Below, in pieces: positions 27,448-36,488 of a stretch of 36,860 bases of DNA (position 1 is the stretch's first letter; every line of letters begins with the position of its first letter). The stretch is from Chitinophagaceae bacterium (GTDB lineage: Bacteria; Bacteroidota; Bacteroidia; Chitinophagales; Chitinophagaceae). Where the stretch lies: contig JAJTFQ010000012.1 in NCBI GenBank assembly GCA_021299955.1, positions 6,648 through 43,507 of the forward strand. Reading direction: 5' to 3'. The notes under the pieces were generated by a model that worked only from the letters and a program-made list of their open reading frames with translations, did no database searches and was not told the DNA's origin. The position numbers were made by a program, and so were the translations under genes.

Positions 27448-28185
27448 TCAATTCCACTGGATCGCAAAATAAAGCGCAGGACGCTTACCGATGTTCGTGA
27501 TGTTATGCGGCAGCATCGATGCCACCCAGGCCGTTTGGCCGGTCACGATCCGATGAGGCTTAGATCCTAATATCATTTCTCCTTCACCATCGATCATCAG
27601 GATGATCTCCTCATTCTGATGCGTGTGCGGCGGATGACTGCTCAATCCCGGATTCAACTGGGTGATATGGATGTCGAACCGCTGCATGGTAACGGTCTTC
27701 CGGTCGAAAAGCTGACGCACACCACCTCTCTCGTGCGCCCGGAACGTCATATCAAACCAGTCCATCATGAATGAAGGACCGGCATTTTTCCCTCTTGACT
27801 CATCCCGATCTGATGCAGTCATTCTCATCTCATAGATCTCTACGTCATCCTTGCGGGGATTGCGAAATGCAACCTCGTCACCGGGCAGCACAAACACCAC
27901 CGATCCCTTGTCGAGCCGGCGGGTTGCGCCGTTGAGCATGACATCTACGGGGCCATATTTGATGATGAAAAACAATTCCGGTCCATTGGATGCAGATTGA
28001 AAAACCCTGCGTTTTCCTCCGCGTATGGTATGGCCGGATAATTGCTGGCTTGAAAGCACCGCACCGGAGCCATTGAGTATGGTACCGCTAGGATTCCAGT
28101 CATACACCGCAGTTTCAACCAGGCTCTGCGAGAACGATACCTGAAAACAGGTAATAAATACAAACAGACCGATGAGTGATTTCAT
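27448..28185 (-). CDS. Cupin domain protein (probable bicupin), exported
   Basis: Signal peptide MKSLIGLFVFITCFQVSFS; metal-binding cupin motif HPPHTHQNEEIILMIDGEGEMILG...H; weaker N-terminal cupin repeat. Confidence 0.87.
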   Translation of the reverse strand: MKSLIGLFVFITCFQVSFSQSLVETAVYDWNPSGTILNGSGAVLSSQQLSGHTIRGGKRRVFQSASNGPELFFIIKYGPVDVMLNGATRRLDKGSVVFVLPGDEVAFRNPRKDDVEIYEMRMTASDRDESRGKNAGPSFMMDWFDMTFRAHERGGVRQLFDRKTVTMQRFDIHITQLNPGLSSHPPHTHQNEEIILMIDGEGEMILGSKPHRIVTGQTAWVASMLPHNITNIGKRPALYFAIQWN

Positions 28186-28206
28186 ATTTATTTTTTATCT
28201 ATAACA

Positions 28207-29274
28207 TTAAGACTTATCTACCCCCAATCCTGCATTACCAACCAAATGCATTAACCCGTCCCGCAGCACAAATCCCCCGCGAAACAGATCCTCAGCCAGA
28301 TCGAAACTGCCATCAAGATCCAGAAACTCCGTGTTCGGACAACTATAGGCCACATGCAAAGCAGCCGCGATGCTGACGACACTCTCGTCGTTGCAACCCC
28401 AGAAGAGACGAATACCTGAAGGCGCCGCAACTTTAGCGATCTCGCGGGCCGCCATTATCCCGCCACACTTCATCAGTTTAATGTTGATGATGCCGAAGAC
28501 CGGATCACCAGACGATAACGCTTTTGCCGCATCGACATCTTTGAGTGATTCATCGGCGGCCAATAGATGTCTGACATCCGATGGCAATGCGCGCAAGTCT
28601 TCCTCCGAACCCGTCGGCAATGGCTGTTCAATGACTTCCATCGGAACCGAAACGGTTCTTCGTAAAAAGGTTTGAAACGAGCGGATATCATATCCCTGAT
28701 TCATATCCACCCGAAGGATCGCCCGATGCCCAAAACGCTCATGCAATCGGATCATCCGTTCGATATCCTCTTCCGGATCCCGTCCCAGTTTGACCTTAAG
28801 ATGCCGAAAGCCGGTGGACAGATAGGCCTCCGCTTCTGCCAATGTTTCCTGTACACCCATCACACCAATGGTAACCGATGTCGGCAAAGGCCCTGAACAT
28901 GCGCCGAACAAAGCGGCAACGGGCACACCGCGCCATCGGGCAAAAGCATCATGCAAAGCGATGTCCACCGCAGCCATGGTACCCGGCCTGTCCGGAAACC
29001 GCTCTCGTAACTTTCGGATCAACGCATCATATTCGCGGATATCGCATCCCTTCAGCATCATGACATCCCCGGAACAGAGATTTTCAAAGGTCATCTCGGC
29101 CGTCTCTCCCACAACTTCAGCAGCAGGACTCCCCGAGCCGTAACCGATGATGCCATTCTCCAGCTCGATCTCCAGGAATGCCAGGTCGACATGATCGAAA
29201 TCTCCCCCGGCGATGGCATAAGGTTTCTTCAGCGGAATGCTGCGCAACGAAGGACGGATGTCTAGGATATTCAT
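28207..29274 (-). CDS. Enolase-superfamily dipeptide epimerase (L-Ala-D/L-Glu epimerase / DgcA-like)
   Basis: KxK motif HLKVKLG; metal ligands LRVDMNQGY, EVIEQPLP, LAADESLKD; second-barrel Lys in NIKLMKCGG. Confidence 0.9.
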   Translation of the reverse strand: MNILDIRPSLRSIPLKKPYAIAGGDFDHVDLAFLEIELENGIIGYGSGSPAAEVVGETAEMTFENLCSGDVMMLKGCDIREYDALIRKLRERFPDRPGTMAAVDIALHDAFARWRGVPVAALFGACSGPLPTSVTIGVMGVQETLAEAEAYLSTGFRHLKVKLGRDPEEDIERMIRLHERFGHRAILRVDMNQGYDIRSFQTFLRRTVSVPMEVIEQPLPTGSEEDLRALPSDVRHLLAADESLKDVDAAKALSSGDPVFGIINIKLMKCGGIMAAREIAKVAAPSGIRLFWGCNDESVVSIAAALHVAYSCPNTEFLDLDGSFDLAEDLFRGGFVLRDGLMHLVGNAGLGVDKS

Positions 29275-29285
29275 ACCGATGGATG

Positions 29286-30356
29286 TCAGCCCTGCGACTG
29301 GCTCTGGGTAATCAAATGCTTAAGATCGGGGATCAGCCTGTCCACGCCTTCCTGCAAGGGCAGTAGTACCGGCCGGGCCAGTACCTGCTCATATCGCTGA
29401 CGAAGGGTCTTCGCCTCTTCGGGCGTACAACCTTCGGTATGCATCCCCACCGCAACGACTTTCGTCCCATATGCCTCGATCAGCCTGATCTCCGAAAGAA
29501 CATCCGGGATCTCTCCCCACTTGGGATTGTGATCCCAGTACTTGCGCTTGGGAGAGAACATAAGCACCGCGTGGCGCGCCCCACCTGATAACAAGAGCTC
29601 CGGACCACAGGGCCCGCTGGGATTGCGCAAACCCGACTGACCCTCCAGAAAGATGATCTCCGGATTGGCCTCGCGCCAGCACTGCAGGATGGCATGCTCC
29701 AACTCACCTGTGACAAAATCATTCAGCGTCGCATCGAAGATGAAACCATACTGACCGCCCTGCATCCAACCCGTCTGTCCTGTGAAGATCATCTCCGCAC
29801 GCAGACCGCTCGCTTCACAGGCCTGACGCAGCAGACGAGCAGTTGTGCGTTTGCCCATCGCACAATCCATCCCAATGACGGCCACCACCGGAACATCCAC
29901 CTTCTTGATATCACCCGTCCAGAAATGAAGCTCTTCACGGGTCTTGGGCTTCCGTACATCTATGATCTCGGCCTGGTAGAGATTAGCCAGGGAAACGATA
30001 TCCTGTTTGTCGCTCAGGAATTCATGCAGACCATTGACGATCGACAGACCGGCGCGAAGGGCCAGCCGGATCACTTCCATCATGTCAGACGGCAACTTGC
30101 CACCGACCGTCGCCACGCCGATGACCAGATAACGAGGTCCCCAGACTCCTGCTAAAGCATCCTCAAGATTGGCAAACATGGGAATGTCGCGATGCTTTCC
30201 ATCCAGCAGGACACCGGCGTCACGACCGGCCGTCTCCGGACCGTCAATGACGCCCAGCACTTCAAAACGTTCACTGCCGCGGATGAGCCCGTGTGCGGTC
30301 TTTGCATCATCCTTTCGGAATAACCCATTGGTGAGTACAATTGCTGGCGACTTCAT
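29286..30356 (-). CDS. DUF1611 family protein (DgcN-like N-acyltransferase candidate)
   Basis: P-loop-like VAVIGMDCAMGKRTTARLL; MIFTGQTGWMQGGQYGFIFDATLNDFVTGELEHAIL; LEGQSGLRNPSGPCG. Confidence 0.88.
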   Translation of the reverse strand: MKSPAIVLTNGLFRKDDAKTAHGLIRGSERFEVLGVIDGPETAGRDAGVLLDGKHRDIPMFANLEDALAGVWGPRYLVIGVATVGGKLPSDMMEVIRLALRAGLSIVNGLHEFLSDKQDIVSLANLYQAEIIDVRKPKTREELHFWTGDIKKVDVPVVAVIGMDCAMGKRTTARLLRQACEASGLRAEMIFTGQTGWMQGGQYGFIFDATLNDFVTGELEHAILQCWREANPEIIFLEGQSGLRNPSGPCGPELLLSGGARHAVLMFSPKRKYWDHNPKWGEIPDVLSEIRLIEAYGTKVVAVGMHTEGCTPEEAKTLRQRYEQVLARPVLLPLQEGVDRLIPDLKHLITQSQSQG

Positions 30357-30386
30357 GGATATCGTAGGTTTTGGATTTAAATCGAT

Positions 30387-31916
30387 TCAATGCTTTTTTA
30401 GGACGGATACCGGACGGGTGACCAATCTGCCGGAACGAATTCCTGTGGACCTGCCAGCGTCATACACTCGTTTTCCGTTGACCCATACACTGATGATGCC
30501 GTCGGACAATGCATGGCTGTCTTCCAGCGTCGCTCGGTCGATGACGCGATCCGGATCGAATAAGACAAGATCCGCCAGGTAACCCGGACGAATGAGGCCA
30601 CGATCCCGGATGCCCAGGTGCCGTGCCGTGAGACCCGTCATCTTATGAACGGCCTTTTCCAGGCTCATCAGTTTGCTCTCACGGACCTGACGACCCAGCA
30701 CCCGCGTAAAGGAACCAAACCCGCGGGGGTGGCGTCCGGCGTTCCCATCAGAACAAATATTCGTGTGCGGCCATGCCAGGAAGGCGGCCACATCCCCGGC
30801 GGTCATCGACTTGCCGGCAATCGCCTCGACACCATCCACATCCGGATGGGTTCGCTCATATTCCGCTGCGCGCGCGACCAAATGCAAAAGGGTCTGAGCA
30901 GGTGACTCCCGACGTATCCGGGCGATCTCCCCCAGCATGCGGCCCTCCCAGGCAGGTTCAGGCAGGTATCTCACCAGCATCGAACTGTCAGGGTCGCATA
31001 ACTTTTCAACAGCCAGTCGGGCACTGGCAGTATCCGAATACCTGCGATCAGGAAACAATACACGCAGGGTGGAGTTCCAGAAAGTGTAAGGATAGGCATC
31101 CGCCGTGATATCGATCCCCTCGGCACGAGCCCGCTCCAACCGGGCGATGACCCGGGGCGCCTGACCCCAGTCATCACGGGCCGCCAGTTTGATATGGGAT
31201 ATCTTGACAGGCATGCCCGTAAGTCGACCGATCTCGATGATCTCTTCCACGGCCTCATCCATCTTCAGATCCTCACTTCGGATATGGCTGATATATCGTC
31301 CGCCAAATTCCGCGGCTACCCGGGCAAGTGACACCACTTCCAAACGGCTGCTGTAAAAGGCACCCTCGTATTCGAGTCCGGTGGAAAGCCCCAGCGAACC
31401 GCGGGTCATCTCCTTCGACAACATCGTCCGCATCTTCGCGAGTTCGACATCCGTAGCCGGCCGGTTCAAGTCATCATCACTCATGACCTCCGACCGCAGC
31501 ATCGTATGGCCGGTGTAACTGGCGATGTTGACAGCAAAACGATTCCCGGAGAGCAATGCCTGAAGGGAATCCATCGGAAGCCCGTCGCCGTCCTGACCGA
31601 TGACGATCGTGGTAATACCCTGACTCGCCGTGGCCAATGCATCCGGATTCCTTCGAAGATATCCCAGGTGATGTGAATGCGAATCGATGAAGCCGGGAGC
31701 CAATACCTGCCCGCGACCATCCACGATACTGTCGCCCGGCATGACTTTCAACGCACCCACGGCGATGATCCTGTCTCCCCGAAGCCTCACTGAAGCGATC
31801 CTCACCGGTGTACCTGTCCCGTCGATCAGCCGGATGTTGGTGATGAGGATGTCCTTCGCCCAGGAGACGCTGGATATGCATGTAAAGCATAATATGATCA
31901 CAAAACGCGCATACAT
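30387..31916 (-). CDS. N-acyl-D-amino-acid deacylase / D-aminoacylase family amidohydrolase, exported
   Basis: Signal peptide; APGFIDSHSHHLGYL; GMPVKISHIKLA; SDGNAGRHPRGFGSFTRVLG; GYLADLVLFDPDRVID. Confidence 0.9.
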   Translation of the reverse strand: MYARFVIILCFTCISSVSWAKDILITNIRLIDGTGTPVRIASVRLRGDRIIAVGALKVMPGDSIVDGRGQVLAPGFIDSHSHHLGYLRRNPDALATASQGITTIVIGQDGDGLPMDSLQALLSGNRFAVNIASYTGHTMLRSEVMSDDDLNRPATDVELAKMRTMLSKEMTRGSLGLSTGLEYEGAFYSSRLEVVSLARVAAEFGGRYISHIRSEDLKMDEAVEEIIEIGRLTGMPVKISHIKLAARDDWGQAPRVIARLERARAEGIDITADAYPYTFWNSTLRVLFPDRRYSDTASARLAVEKLCDPDSSMLVRYLPEPAWEGRMLGEIARIRRESPAQTLLHLVARAAEYERTHPDVDGVEAIAGKSMTAGDVAAFLAWPHTNICSDGNAGRHPRGFGSFTRVLGRQVRESKLMSLEKAVHKMTGLTARHLGIRDRGLIRPGYLADLVLFDPDRVIDRATLEDSHALSDGIISVWVNGKRVYDAGRSTGIRSGRLVTRPVSVLKKH

Positions 31917-32080
31917 CTGCAGAAAATTGATGAACTTAATGCTTAAACATCATACAAGCTAACAATTTTGCAAGACTTACGTGCGAAACCCGCCAGTTTG
32001 GAAATCGTTCCTCAAAAGGACTGACGAAAAATATCCCGTGCTTACAGAAGGAAATAGCTTGTACAATATATCTAACGTTC

Positions 32081-33508
32081 ATGACTGAAAAAATCATACA
32101 CGCGAGACTGATCCTAAGCGTTTTCTCTCTGATCGCCCTGTTTGCTTGCCGAAAGGAAAATACAGGAGATACGGGTAGCCTGACAGCCGCCGATTCCGCA
32201 AAATACAATCCGGATTGGACCTTCACCAGCCATGGCAACGCATATCAGGATTACCAGCGCGTTTTCCCGCAGCAACAAGTCAACAGCATTGAGATCAAGA
32301 TGACCGCAGCCCAGTGGACATCGATCAGGGCCAATGTAAAAACCATCGTCGGAACAGACTTCGGCGTAGCCGGCGGAGGCCCTCCCCCGGCAACCAATGC
32401 CACTGAACCCGACTACGTGGATGTCAGCCTGACATTCAACGGAAAAACCTGGAAGAATGTCGGATTCAGGCTGAAGGGAAATTCCACGCTGCGGACGGCC
32501 TGGCAGACGGGCAACTACAAACTGCCCTTTCGGCTGAATTTTGATGAGTTTGAAGACAAGTATCCGGCCATCACCGATCAGCATTTCTTCGGATTCGAAG
32601 AGATGAGCTTCTCACCGGGAGCCAAAGATCCGTCCCTGATCCGGGAGAAAGCTGCCTCGGACATCTTCAGGATGGCCGGCATACCCTGCGCGCAAACGGC
32701 ATTCTACCGGGTTTCCATCGATTTTGGCAGCGGTTTGCGTTACTGCGGCGTGTACACCGGCATCGAACTCCCCGACGATAACATGATCAAGCAACAGTTC
32801 GGTGAGGAAAAAGGAAACATCTACAAGCCTGAATCGAATCTGACGAGTTTCAACATCAGTCTTTTTGAAAAAAAGAATAATGAGACAACAACCGATTACT
32901 CGGACGTCCAGCAACTGGTCTCCATCCTCAACAGTCCAACCCGTACGAGCGCACCCGCACAATGGCGAACACAGCTGGAGGCCGTCTTCAACGTCGACCA
33001 CTTCCTGAAATACCTGGCCATCAACAATGGGATGGTGAACTGGGACAGCTACGGCGTGATGGCCCACAACTTCTACCTCTACAACCATTCCGTGAAGAAA
33101 CTCACCTGGATACCCTGGGATCACAACGAGGCGCTGAATGGCAGTCCAGGCATCACCGGAACTACCGGGGGAGGTGGACCGGCTGGCAGATCCGGCCTCT
33201 CGCTGAGCATGAATGAAGTCACCGCCTCCTGGCCGCTGATCCGATACCTTGCAGACGATCCAATATACATGCAGTCCTACAAGGACCAGCTGAAAGCGTT
33301 CCGGAACAATTTCCTGGTGGAATCCACCATGCACGCCATGTTTGATAAATATTACAACCTGATACAACCCTTTGCTACGGGTACCAACGGCGAACAGGCA
33401 GGCGCTACCTACCTGACCGGCGGCGCCGCAGGATTCTCGACAGCGTTGACCGCGCTGAAAACACATATCACCAACAGAAGAGCACTCATAGCCAACTATG
33501 TTCCCTGA
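32081..33508 (+). CDS. CotH kinase family lipoprotein
   Basis: Lipobox-like LFAC; VDVSLTFNGKTWKNVGFRLKGNSTLR; ALIREKAA-type SLIREKAASDIFRMAGIPCAQTAFYRV; GVYTGIELPDD; KKLTWIPWDHNEALNG. Confidence 0.9.
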   Translation: MTEKIIHARLILSVFSLIALFACRKENTGDTGSLTAADSAKYNPDWTFTSHGNAYQDYQRVFPQQQVNSIEIKMTAAQWTSIRANVKTIVGTDFGVAGGGPPPATNATEPDYVDVSLTFNGKTWKNVGFRLKGNSTLRTAWQTGNYKLPFRLNFDEFEDKYPAITDQHFFGFEEMSFSPGAKDPSLIREKAASDIFRMAGIPCAQTAFYRVSIDFGSGLRYCGVYTGIELPDDNMIKQQFGEEKGNIYKPESNLTSFNISLFEKKNNETTTDYSDVQQLVSILNSPTRTSAPAQWRTQLEAVFNVDHFLKYLAINNGMVNWDSYGVMAHNFYLYNHSVKKLTWIPWDHNEALNGSPGITGTTGGGGPAGRSGLSLSMNEVTASWPLIRYLADDPIYMQSYKDQLKAFRNNFLVESTMHAMFDKYYNLIQPFATGTNGEQAGATYLTGGAAGFSTALTALKTHITNRRALIANYVP

Positions 33509-34319
33509 TCTTTCATCATACCAGGAAATAACCAGGATGAACCTTCAGACGGATGAAATTATTCAGAACTTCGATTACGTGAACCTATCGGAAACCATCA
33601 AAAAAGCGGCACTGATGGACAGATCCGATACCAAATATGTCATACCAGCCTCCCGACTGAACGAGGTGCTGAAAGCCTGCAAACCAAAGTACCGCATCCT
33701 CGAGATCCGGGACAAGAGATCATTTCAATATGATACTGTATATTTTGACACCCCCGGGCTGAGGTTTTATCATGATCACCATGCCGGGAAGCAGGACAGA
33801 CAAAAGGTACGGATCAGAAAATACCTGGACTCCGGCATGGCTTACCTCGAAGTCAAACATCGGCTCAACAAAGGCAACACCATCAAATCAAGGATGGTGC
33901 TGGATGCACAGTCACCCGAAGACATCAGTGCCCTGAAGCATCCCGTCTTTGCCGATGCCGGAAACCTACCCGTAGATCAGCTCCGGCCGGTCATCAGGAT
34001 ATCCTACGACCGGATCACACTGGTCGATCTGACGAACGAGGAACGGGTCACCATCGACCGGCATATCGTCTTTGAGCGAGGAAATGAAACCCGCTCGATG
34101 GATGGCATTGTCATCGCCGAAGTCAAGCAAGTCAAAAAACATCCTTCGTTTTTCCGCCGGCAAATGCGCGCCATGAACATCCGGGAGGGATCCGTCAGCA
34201 AGTACTGCATGGGAACCCTGCTCCTGAACGACCGAGTCAAAGGAAACCGCTTCAAAACCAGATTGAACAGGATCCTGAAGATCACCGACACCTTAAAACA
34301 AACCATCTCACATGCCTGA
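33498..34319 (+). CDS. VTC-domain polyphosphate polymerase family protein (alternative start 33537)
   Basis: DRSDTKYVIPASRL, YDTVYFDTPGLRFY, KVRIRKYLDSGMAYLEVKHRLNKGNTIKSRM, IVIAEVKQVK: the basic-strand and E-K pattern of the VTC tunnel fold. Overlaps the CotH stop by 11 nt. Confidence 0.88.
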   Translation: MFPDLSSYQEITRMNLQTDEIIQNFDYVNLSETIKKAALMDRSDTKYVIPASRLNEVLKACKPKYRILEIRDKRSFQYDTVYFDTPGLRFYHDHHAGKQDRQKVRIRKYLDSGMAYLEVKHRLNKGNTIKSRMVLDAQSPEDISALKHPVFADAGNLPVDQLRPVIRISYDRITLVDLTNEERVTIDRHIVFERGNETRSMDGIVIAEVKQVKKHPSFFRRQMRAMNIREGSVSKYCMGTLLLNDRVKGNRFKTRLNRILKITDTLKQTISHA

Positions 34320-34941
34320 TTTTTTCGACGGACAGGGATTCAAACTCTGGGGATCCGAAGGACTCGAATTCCTCTTTAGACTCCTGTGCGATATCCTGAC
34401 GGTGACCATCCTGATACGCGGGATCTACATCCCGAAATATCGGCGCACCAACGTCATATTTACGTTCTTTTCGATGAACATTGTCATCTTCCTGATCGGA
34501 TTCCTATTGAACAAGGTGGAGATGACCATGGGCGCCGCCTTCGGGCTCTTCGCCGTCTTTTCCATGCTCCGGTTCAGGACCGAAAACATCTCCGCCCGGG
34601 ACATGACCTACGTCTTCATCGTTATCGCCGTCGGGCTGCTCGTCTCCGTCAGTCGGGGCGGATGGCAGGAAATGCTGCTGATCAGCGGGGTGATCGTACT
34701 CTCAACCTGGCTGCTCGAAAAGGGACTACACTCGGGACAAGAAGAAGTCAGGGAGATCCTGTACGAGCGGATAGAACTCATCCATGCAAGCCGCCGGCAG
34801 GAACTCATCGAGGACCTCAGGAACCGCACCGGCCTGGAAATCCGAAGGGTTGAGATCGGAGAGATCGACCTGCTTAAGGATGCAGCCAGGGTGACCGTTT
34901 ACTACCTGCCACAGCCCAACAAGCCATCCGACCGTATATAA
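34312..34941 (+). CDS. DUF4956 domain membrane protein
   Basis: N-terminal TM helices with MGAAFGLFAVFSMLRFRTENISARDMTYVFIVIAVGLLVSV, then a soluble C-terminal domain. Start overlaps the VTC stop (ATGCCTGA). Confidence 0.88.
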   Translation: MPDFFDGQGFKLWGSEGLEFLFRLLCDILTVTILIRGIYIPKYRRTNVIFTFFSMNIVIFLIGFLLNKVEMTMGAAFGLFAVFSMLRFRTENISARDMTYVFIVIAVGLLVSVSRGGWQEMLLISGVIVLSTWLLEKGLHSGQEEVREILYERIELIHASRRQELIEDLRNRTGLEIRRVEIGEIDLLKDAARVTVYYLPQPNKPSDRI

Positions 34942-34972
34942 TGGATCTGCATGATGACTGCACCATTGCGGA

Positions 34973-35725
34973 ATGATCCAACCACTTCTCATGACTAAAA
35001 AGAATAGTATGATGCCTCAGCATTCATTTTCTTCGGGAAACCGGAAGATCTTCGTCATCAGTTGCCTGATGTCTTTCATGTCCATCATCTCCGGCGGGGT
35101 CAGAAGTCAACCAAGTAAATCCGACCCCGTGGATATCCAGGGATGGGCCATCATCAGCCTCGGATTGGACCTGCCGAAAAAATGGGAAGCCAGCCTGACC
35201 GGACAGTGGAGGACTGAGAACAACCTGAGTACGACCAAGGGATTCTATGTCTCGCCGGAGGTCTCCTACGAGATCCATAAGAAGGTGAGGATCTTCGCCA
35301 ACTTCCGCTACGCAGATGTCGTCGGCAGCCACTCCTCCCGACTGGGCATCGGATTGGAATACTCCACAAAGATTTCCGGTTGGCAGATCGGTTTGCGACC
35401 TCAGTTTCAGTACACACTTAAATACGCCGATGATGGCGACGGCTCGGCAACCGGAACAAGCATCCTGCGCACAAGACTATCCGTCAGGCACCGCATCACC
35501 AAAAAACTCGACGGATACCTGCAGGTTGAGCCTTATTTCACCTTTACACCAGGCGAATACTTCATCGATAACATCCGAAACACGGCCGGACTTCGATACG
35601 AATACCGGAAAGACCGCAGGATATCAGTGTTCTACACTTACAGACCCGATTTTGCCAAAAGTTATAACAGGCTGTTCCATATCGTCGGACTTCGATGGGA
35701 TGTGGACCTGAAATGGAAAAAATGA
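34973..35725 (+). CDS. DUF2490 domain protein, predicted outer-membrane barrel-like
   Basis: Signal; beta-rich pattern GWAIISLGLDLPKKWEASLTGQWRTENNL...LRYEYRKDRRISVFYTYRPDFAKSYNRLFHIVGLRWDVDLKWKK. Confidence 0.82.
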   Translation: MIQPLLMTKKNSMMPQHSFSSGNRKIFVISCLMSFMSIISGGVRSQPSKSDPVDIQGWAIISLGLDLPKKWEASLTGQWRTENNLSTTKGFYVSPEVSYEIHKKVRIFANFRYADVVGSHSSRLGIGLEYSTKISGWQIGLRPQFQYTLKYADDGDGSATGTSILRTRLSVRHRITKKLDGYLQVEPYFTFTPGEYFIDNIRNTAGLRYEYRKDRRISVFYTYRPDFAKSYNRLFHIVGLRWDVDLKWKK

Positions 35726-35747: not shown

Positions 35748-36488
35748 TCAACAATTCCAGTATCTGATCGGGTTTTGCACGTGTTTCATCTCCGCATGCA
35801 CGATGCGCTTGCCCCTCTCTCCCACAAATCTCATCCATTGGGCCTCTTCCGCTTCCTTTCCATCGAAGCAATATCGACCGGGATAGGCCGGTGAAGGATA
35901 CCATGTTTCCGGCCTGAAAACGCCAACCGCCACCCCACGGATAGTGGCAATGACCAATTCCGCCTTCGCAGCCCGTTCCCTGGACAAACGCCAGTGACCA
36001 CAGACCTGCAGATAGACAGACATGCGGGTGCTCCTGTTGACGATGTCGTTGATGTTGATGAACAGGATGCGCTCTTCCGGGCGCTCATCAATAACCGGCA
36101 GCGTGTACTTGTCAACCAGCTCACGCACATGCATCGGACCGAAAGAATTACTGCCATGACCAGCCTGTGCGTTCGTCAAACCCGGAAAGGCATCGATCAA
36201 CGCCGCCTCCACATGCTCCACGATACCATCCGGTATCTCATGCCGATGAATGACATGAATGACCTCCAGTCCCGCATTCCGGATGTCCAGGATCCGCTGC
36301 TCCTTGAATGAGAGATCACTATCCGGATCTCGGTCCTTTATCGTGCCGTTGACATGATCAAAAACCCGATTTCCTTTGCCCTTGCCGATGTAAAAGGTCT
36401 CCCCATTGCGCGGATCGATCAGGCGATAGACATAATTCCCGATCTTATCGATGACTTCCTGAGGAAAGGATTGAACTGAATGTTGCAT
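35748..36488 (-). CDS. GIY-YIG nuclease family protein (LEM-3-like GIY-YIG domain)
   Basis: YVYRLIDPRNGETFYIGKGKGNRVFDHVNG; VEHVEAALIDAFPGLTNAQAGHGSNSFGPM. Confidence 0.85.
   Translation of the reverse strand: MQHSVQSFPQEVIDKIGNYVYRLIDPRNGETFYIGKGKGNRVFDHVNGTIKDRDPDSDLSFKEQRILDIRNAGLEVIHVIHRHEIPDGIVEHVEAALIDAFPGLTNAQAGHGSNSFGPMHVRELVDKYTLPVIDERPEERILFININDIVNRSTRMSVYLQVCGHWRLSRERAAKAELVIATIRGVAVGVFRPETWYPSPAYPGRYCFDGKEAEEAQWMRFVGERGKRIVHAEMKHVQNPIRYWNC

Follow-up and report, generated by a model that had tools for sequence, protein, structure and literature searches.

What do a CotH kinase-family protein, a VTC-domain polyphosphate (polyP) polymerase and members of the families DUF4956 and DUF2490 do together in one bacterial operon, and would the polymer stay inside the cell or cross the envelope? 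These questions are raised by a locus in a 36,860-nt stretch of a Chitinophagaceae bacterium contig (JAJTFQ010000012.1; hereafter the window). An open reading frame (ORF) map and Pfam searches delimited a closed four-gene operon on the plus strand at 32081–35725, comprising the genes for CotH (32081–33508, 475 aa; PF08757, E 2.9e-53, 182 bits), VTC (33498–34319, 273 aa; PF09359, E 1e-31, 111 bits), a DUF4956 protein placed in the inner membrane by hydropathy (34312–34941, 209 aa; PF16316, E 4.5e-50, 170 bits) and a DUF2490 protein predicted to form an outer-membrane β-barrel (34973–35725, 250 aa; PF10677, E 1.5e-16, 61 bits), each scoring above its curated cut-off. The tight co-directional packing described in an earlier sequence-only reading was confirmed as called, with overlaps of 11 nt between CotH and VTC and 8 nt between VTC and DUF4956 and a 31-nt gap between DUF4956 and DUF2490. 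Given that homologous VTC proteins begin at the position of Met14 (33537) in the alignment, the VTC protein may start there, which would replace the first overlap with a 28-nt gap.

The operon is bordered by a divergent amidohydrolase gene (30387–31916, minus strand) and a convergent gene for a LEM-3-like GIY-YIG nuclease domain (35748–36488, minus strand). Its promoter presumably lies in the 164-bp divergent intergenic region (31917–32080, plus strand), in which a sigma-70 consensus scan located no promoter, and the terminator scan, promoter scan and Rfam search returned nothing useful. The amidohydrolase gene stands in a row with DUF1611, mandelate racemase-like enzyme and cupin genes (27448–31916, minus strand) that resembles a cluster for using amino acids or dipeptides. 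The host genome (3.0 Mb, about 76% complete) carries three DUF2490 genes and a single copy each of VTC, DUF4956 and CotH, and all four operon genes are shared by the closest named relative, a Chitinophagaceae MAG whose VTC is 94% identical.

Conservation was surveyed across the phylum in 248 evenly sampled genomes, of which 43 carry VTC, 68 DUF4956 and 96 CotH. VTC was present across 21 family groups and was always accompanied by DUF4956 (43/43; Fisher p 8e-31, a value that ignores shared ancestry), the pairing being kept among proteins only 22–25% identical. DUF4956 adjoins VTC co-directionally in 97 of 100 VTC loci (median gap −8 nt, 61 overlapping), with VTC preceding DUF4956 in 92, although many loci were picked because VTC or DUF4956 was present, and locus percentages are therefore not population frequencies. 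This adjacency is far beyond chance, and VTC-DUF4956 is the invariant core of the module. The neighbourhood on which the sequence-only reading depended is thus conserved in other genomes, and three loci (L001, L060 and L074) repeat the four genes in exactly the window's order. The grouping of all four families into one module held firmly for the VTC-DUF4956 core and more loosely for the other two members: only 21 of the 100 VTC loci have CotH, counted by a strict kinase-domain profile, within 4 kb of VTC, and DUF2490 is exchangeable. The tie of CotH to VTC is mainly at the genome level, with CotH present in 42 of the 43 VTC genomes (p 1.5e-19, likewise ignoring shared ancestry). Its scarcity beside VTC counts against export, as does Bacteroides ihuae, a control genome with VTC and DUF4956 and without CotH. 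A count of 43 CotH loci from an iterated profile was discarded, the profile having drifted into lamin-tail-domain proteins. Such proteins occupy the place of the window CotH upstream of VTC in four loci (L089, L091, L104 and L107), the one in L107 matching Pfam LTD and carrying a weak type IX sorting tail.

The sequence-only reading considered the module in Bacteroidota, but its distribution is wider. The VTC-DUF4956 pair also occurs in Deinococcota, Pseudomonadota, Actinomycetota and on Bacillota plasmids, including Deinococcus QL22, Nitratireductor, Shinella, Aminobacter, two actinomycetes and Pseudobutyrivibrio (Lachnospiraceae), and Deinococcus taeanensis has CotH-VTC-DUF4956 in the same order as the window. 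Corynebacterium glutamicum, too, carries genes of these three families. In part, the module had also been described before, as a Pel accessory group.

The VTC domain of the window protein is full-length (PF09359 positions 2–234 of 235). A PDB sequence search with this single protein gave no match, whereas the family profile aligned with yeast Vtc4 (3g3q) across the whole domain (E 3.8e-20). Equivalents of the Vtc4 active-site set K200, R264, R266, K281, R361, E426 and K458 are present in the window protein, the last six corresponding to R105, R107, K120, R172, E208 and K235, which are kept in 97–98 of 98 homologues. In yeast, R264 and R266 are essential for polyP synthesis (PMC8749416). The catalytic residues, whose possible loss the sequence-only reading had singled out, are intact, and the window VTC looks like an active enzyme, its active site suggesting polyP synthesis. 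It shares with the yeast VTC complex the catalytic domain, the active-site residues and the coupling of a polymerase to a membrane protein; by contrast, Pfam found the VTC domain only and no SPX domain in the 273-aa protein, whereas the yeast complex has one, and the Vtc transmembrane domain of the yeast vacuole has its counterpart in a separate, unrelated-looking DUF4956 gene in a bacterial envelope. PPK1, an unrelated enzyme whose product would likewise be polyP, is additionally present in 41 of the 43 VTC genomes, the host genome included, and VTC is therefore probably not the housekeeping polyP enzyme, serving instead a compartment or product beyond PPK1. An apparent VTC fusion in L052 was rejected, as its 778-aa frame appears to be the run-on of a GC-rich open frame, with an HlyD-like gene in another frame of the stretch.

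DUF4956 has four transmembrane-like segments by hydropathy and a C-terminal α/β domain, the most confident part of an AlphaFold model (3-row alignment) that is too poor for fold comparison (pLDDT 54, pTM 0.29), and its profile found no credible match in the PDB. It serves not VTC alone, being present without VTC in 25 of the 68 DUF4956 genomes, which counts against export. Among 17 loci with DUF4956 and without VTC, 12 contain an HlyD-like gene, mostly then with a TolC-like protein as well. Because such neighbours also occur in the absence of VTC, DUF4956 behaves as the inner-membrane component of an exporter would, and the cytosolic protein most often paired with it in our sample is VTC. The earlier proposal that DUF4956 is the translocation partner of VTC is strengthened by these neighbours and by the constant co-occurrence, the obligatory linkage making DUF4956 a candidate for this role. 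DUF4956 genes with neither VTC nor HlyD nearby were seen in L139, L140, L141 and L145, and the membrane "tubulin/FtsZ GTPase" genes (222–226 aa) that adjoin VTC and CotH in the NELoc-2 table of C. perfringens (PMC2879425) probably encode DUF4956 proteins.

A new observation is that the outer partner of VTC-DUF4956 is exchangeable. DUF2490 stands beside the core in 43 of the 100 VTC loci and an HlyD-like adaptor, upstream of VTC or downstream of DUF4956, in 29, with no locus containing both; in 28 neither is nearby, which counts against export. One locus (L056) brings an inner-membrane part, an HlyD adaptor and an outer-membrane factor (OMF) together, in the order CotH, DUF4956, HlyD, TolC-like OEP, VTC and a CotH-profile protein (OEP, E 4.3e-17; HlyD_D23, E 4.9e-12). 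The arrangement is reminiscent of HlyD/TolC tripartite exporters, but there is no ABC, RND or MFS pump in the cluster, DUF4956 would be the inner-membrane component, and the window has DUF2490 in place of the HlyD adaptor and OMF set. In Pseudoalteromonas (L080), DUF2490 is replaced by a phosphate-selective porin O/P (Porin_O_P) directly after DUF4956; upstream of this intact DUF4956 gene, an apparent deletion remnant (L080:6288–6984) begins as a lamin-tail-domain lipoprotein and ends as the C-terminus of VTC. Elsewhere, an HlyD-like gene lies in two frames, possibly through a frameshift (L033:7202–8250).

The operonic DUF2490 profile weakly matches KdgM (4fqe, E 0.0013) and NanC (E 0.012), porins for acidic sugars or their oligomers. 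The barrel is assigned by this remote profile match only, the AlphaFold model (2-row alignment, pLDDT 29) being unusable for fold comparison. KdgM, NanC and porins of the OprO/OprP type are channels for solute uptake, and the likeness of DUF2490 and Porin_O_P to them points in that direction; we infer export from the HlyD/TolC partners. Operonic copies conserve R80, R112, R123, R142, R166 and R202, five of which are common to non-operonic copies. An arginine ladder specific to the operonic copies was rejected, since most of these arginines are a general DUF2490 feature and only R112 (42/43) and Q146 differ, non-operonic copies having G/A and E there. The KdgM/NanC-like match lends plausibility to the earlier suggestion that DUF2490 could act on the exported product, with the correction that it is only one of several exchangeable outer partners.

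As the window CotH has a predicted N-terminal lipoprotein-like signal (LIALFAC) and the related CotH of L074 a type IX secretion tail, CotH probably leaves the cytoplasm, either as a lipoprotein or as a secreted protein, and would act outside the cell. Its kinase activity is putative. The protein matches B. cereus CotH (5jd9, E 4e-8), and by motif and spacing its catalytic Asp322 (kept in 25/28) and Asp347 (28/28) are the equivalents of D228 and D251, which are reportedly needed for the activity of B. subtilis CotH; the source of ATP for CotH in the spore coat is described as an unanswered question (PMC7821199).

Taking these observations together, we give about an even chance to the operon being an envelope polyP module in which synthesis is coupled to inner-membrane translocation and outer-membrane exit, with CotH outside. 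The cytosolic VTC enzyme would polymerise phosphate from ATP into linear polyP, as its intact active site suggests, and would hand the growing chain to DUF4956, a translocation partner suggested by the obligatory one-to-one pairing. The chain would exit here through DUF2490, predicted to form an arginine-rich barrel suited to linear polyanions, and in other lineages through an HlyD-like adaptor with or without TolC, and CotH would phosphorylate proteins or polymers at the surface. Several neighbours fit a phosphate polymer, namely an inorganic phosphate transporter and a phytase-like esterase on rhizobial plasmids, a HAD acid phosphatase in Deinococcus QL22, and the phosphate porin of Pseudoalteromonas. 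Since extracellular ATP is not expected, we speculate that exported polyP could be the phosphoryl donor for CotH, which would offer an answer to the question of its ATP source. In its fullest form, as a dedicated bacterial polyP secretion system with exchangeable outer-membrane exits whose exported product feeds CotH kinases outside, the proposal is improbable. To our knowledge, no active polyphosphate secretion system has been described for bacteria, and the module is a testable candidate for one, while DUF4956 gains a functional context across several phyla.

Published work suggests another role, that of an envelope-polymer accessory: the substrate of CotH would be a surface glycopolymer or a matrix protein, VTC and DUF4956 would provide or control the phosphate for this, and polyP export is beside the point. 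Gram-positive Pel operons carry CotH-PPP-DUF4956 as a conserved accessory set (PMC7112168), and in the S. intermedius Pel locus deletion of CotH and DUF4956 altered Pel amount and aggregation, while deletion of the VTC gene had no reported aggregation phenotype, which also counts against export (PMC12345266). That set (SIR_1594–1592) agrees with the window in its three families and in their order; the window differs in adding the outer-membrane partner DUF2490 and in having no Pel genes. EPS-type neighbours are likewise found on the Pseudobutyrivibrio plasmid and in L064, where VTC-CotH-DUF4956 is embedded in a glycan locus that also encodes an O-antigen ligase-like protein and glycosyltransferases. 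However, PelG above cut-off was found in none of the VTC genomes of the phylum sample, the host genome (about 76% complete) included, no glycan synthesis genes adjoin the module in the window or recur beside other loci, and the phosphate transporter, phytase-like and phosphate porin partners would go unexplained; we regard an accessory role of this kind as unlikely. Linkage of the window module to Pel (pelDEADAFG) was rejected, PelG being absent and the neighbouring window genes unrelated. Because PelG matches above cut-off are missing from all VTC genomes of the phylum sample, the CotH-VTC-DUF4956 set exists without Pel, which contradicts, and corrects, the 2025 statement that the arrangement is not found outside Pel loci (PMC12345266). 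The literature searched contained no description of VTC-DUF4956 as a general unit or of its DUF2490, HlyD and TolC partners.

The phosphate-type neighbours could equally serve acquisition, the outer barrel admitting phosphate or oligophosphate and VTC trapping it as an internal polymer, with DUF4956 as the membrane part. The transporter and esterase of the rhizobial plasmids, the acid phosphatase and phn genes of Deinococcus QL22, Porin_O_P and the importing nature of KdgM-like porins all agree with such a function, but HlyD and TolC belong to export machinery, CotH is inherited jointly, internal storage is already provided for by PPK1 in 41 of the 43 genomes, and genes for phosphate transport are not recurrent neighbours of the Bacteroidota loci, making acquisition rather doubtful. 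Nor do we put much weight on the polymer remaining in the cytosol without any export, with DUF4956 only an anchor or sensor (an MgtC-like membrane part with an ACT-like domain) and the neighbours incidental. This would accord with the resemblance of SIR_1592 to MgtC and ACT (PMC12345266), with the α/β domain being the best-modelled part of DUF4956 and with the many loci, monoderms included, that have VTC-DUF4956 alone; however, an internal product would be redundant with that of PPK1, and both the mutual exclusion of DUF2490 and HlyD and the DUF4956-HlyD-TolC loci without VTC would be left unexplained. The genome that carries the glycan-associated L064 (G019) contains three separate VTC loci.
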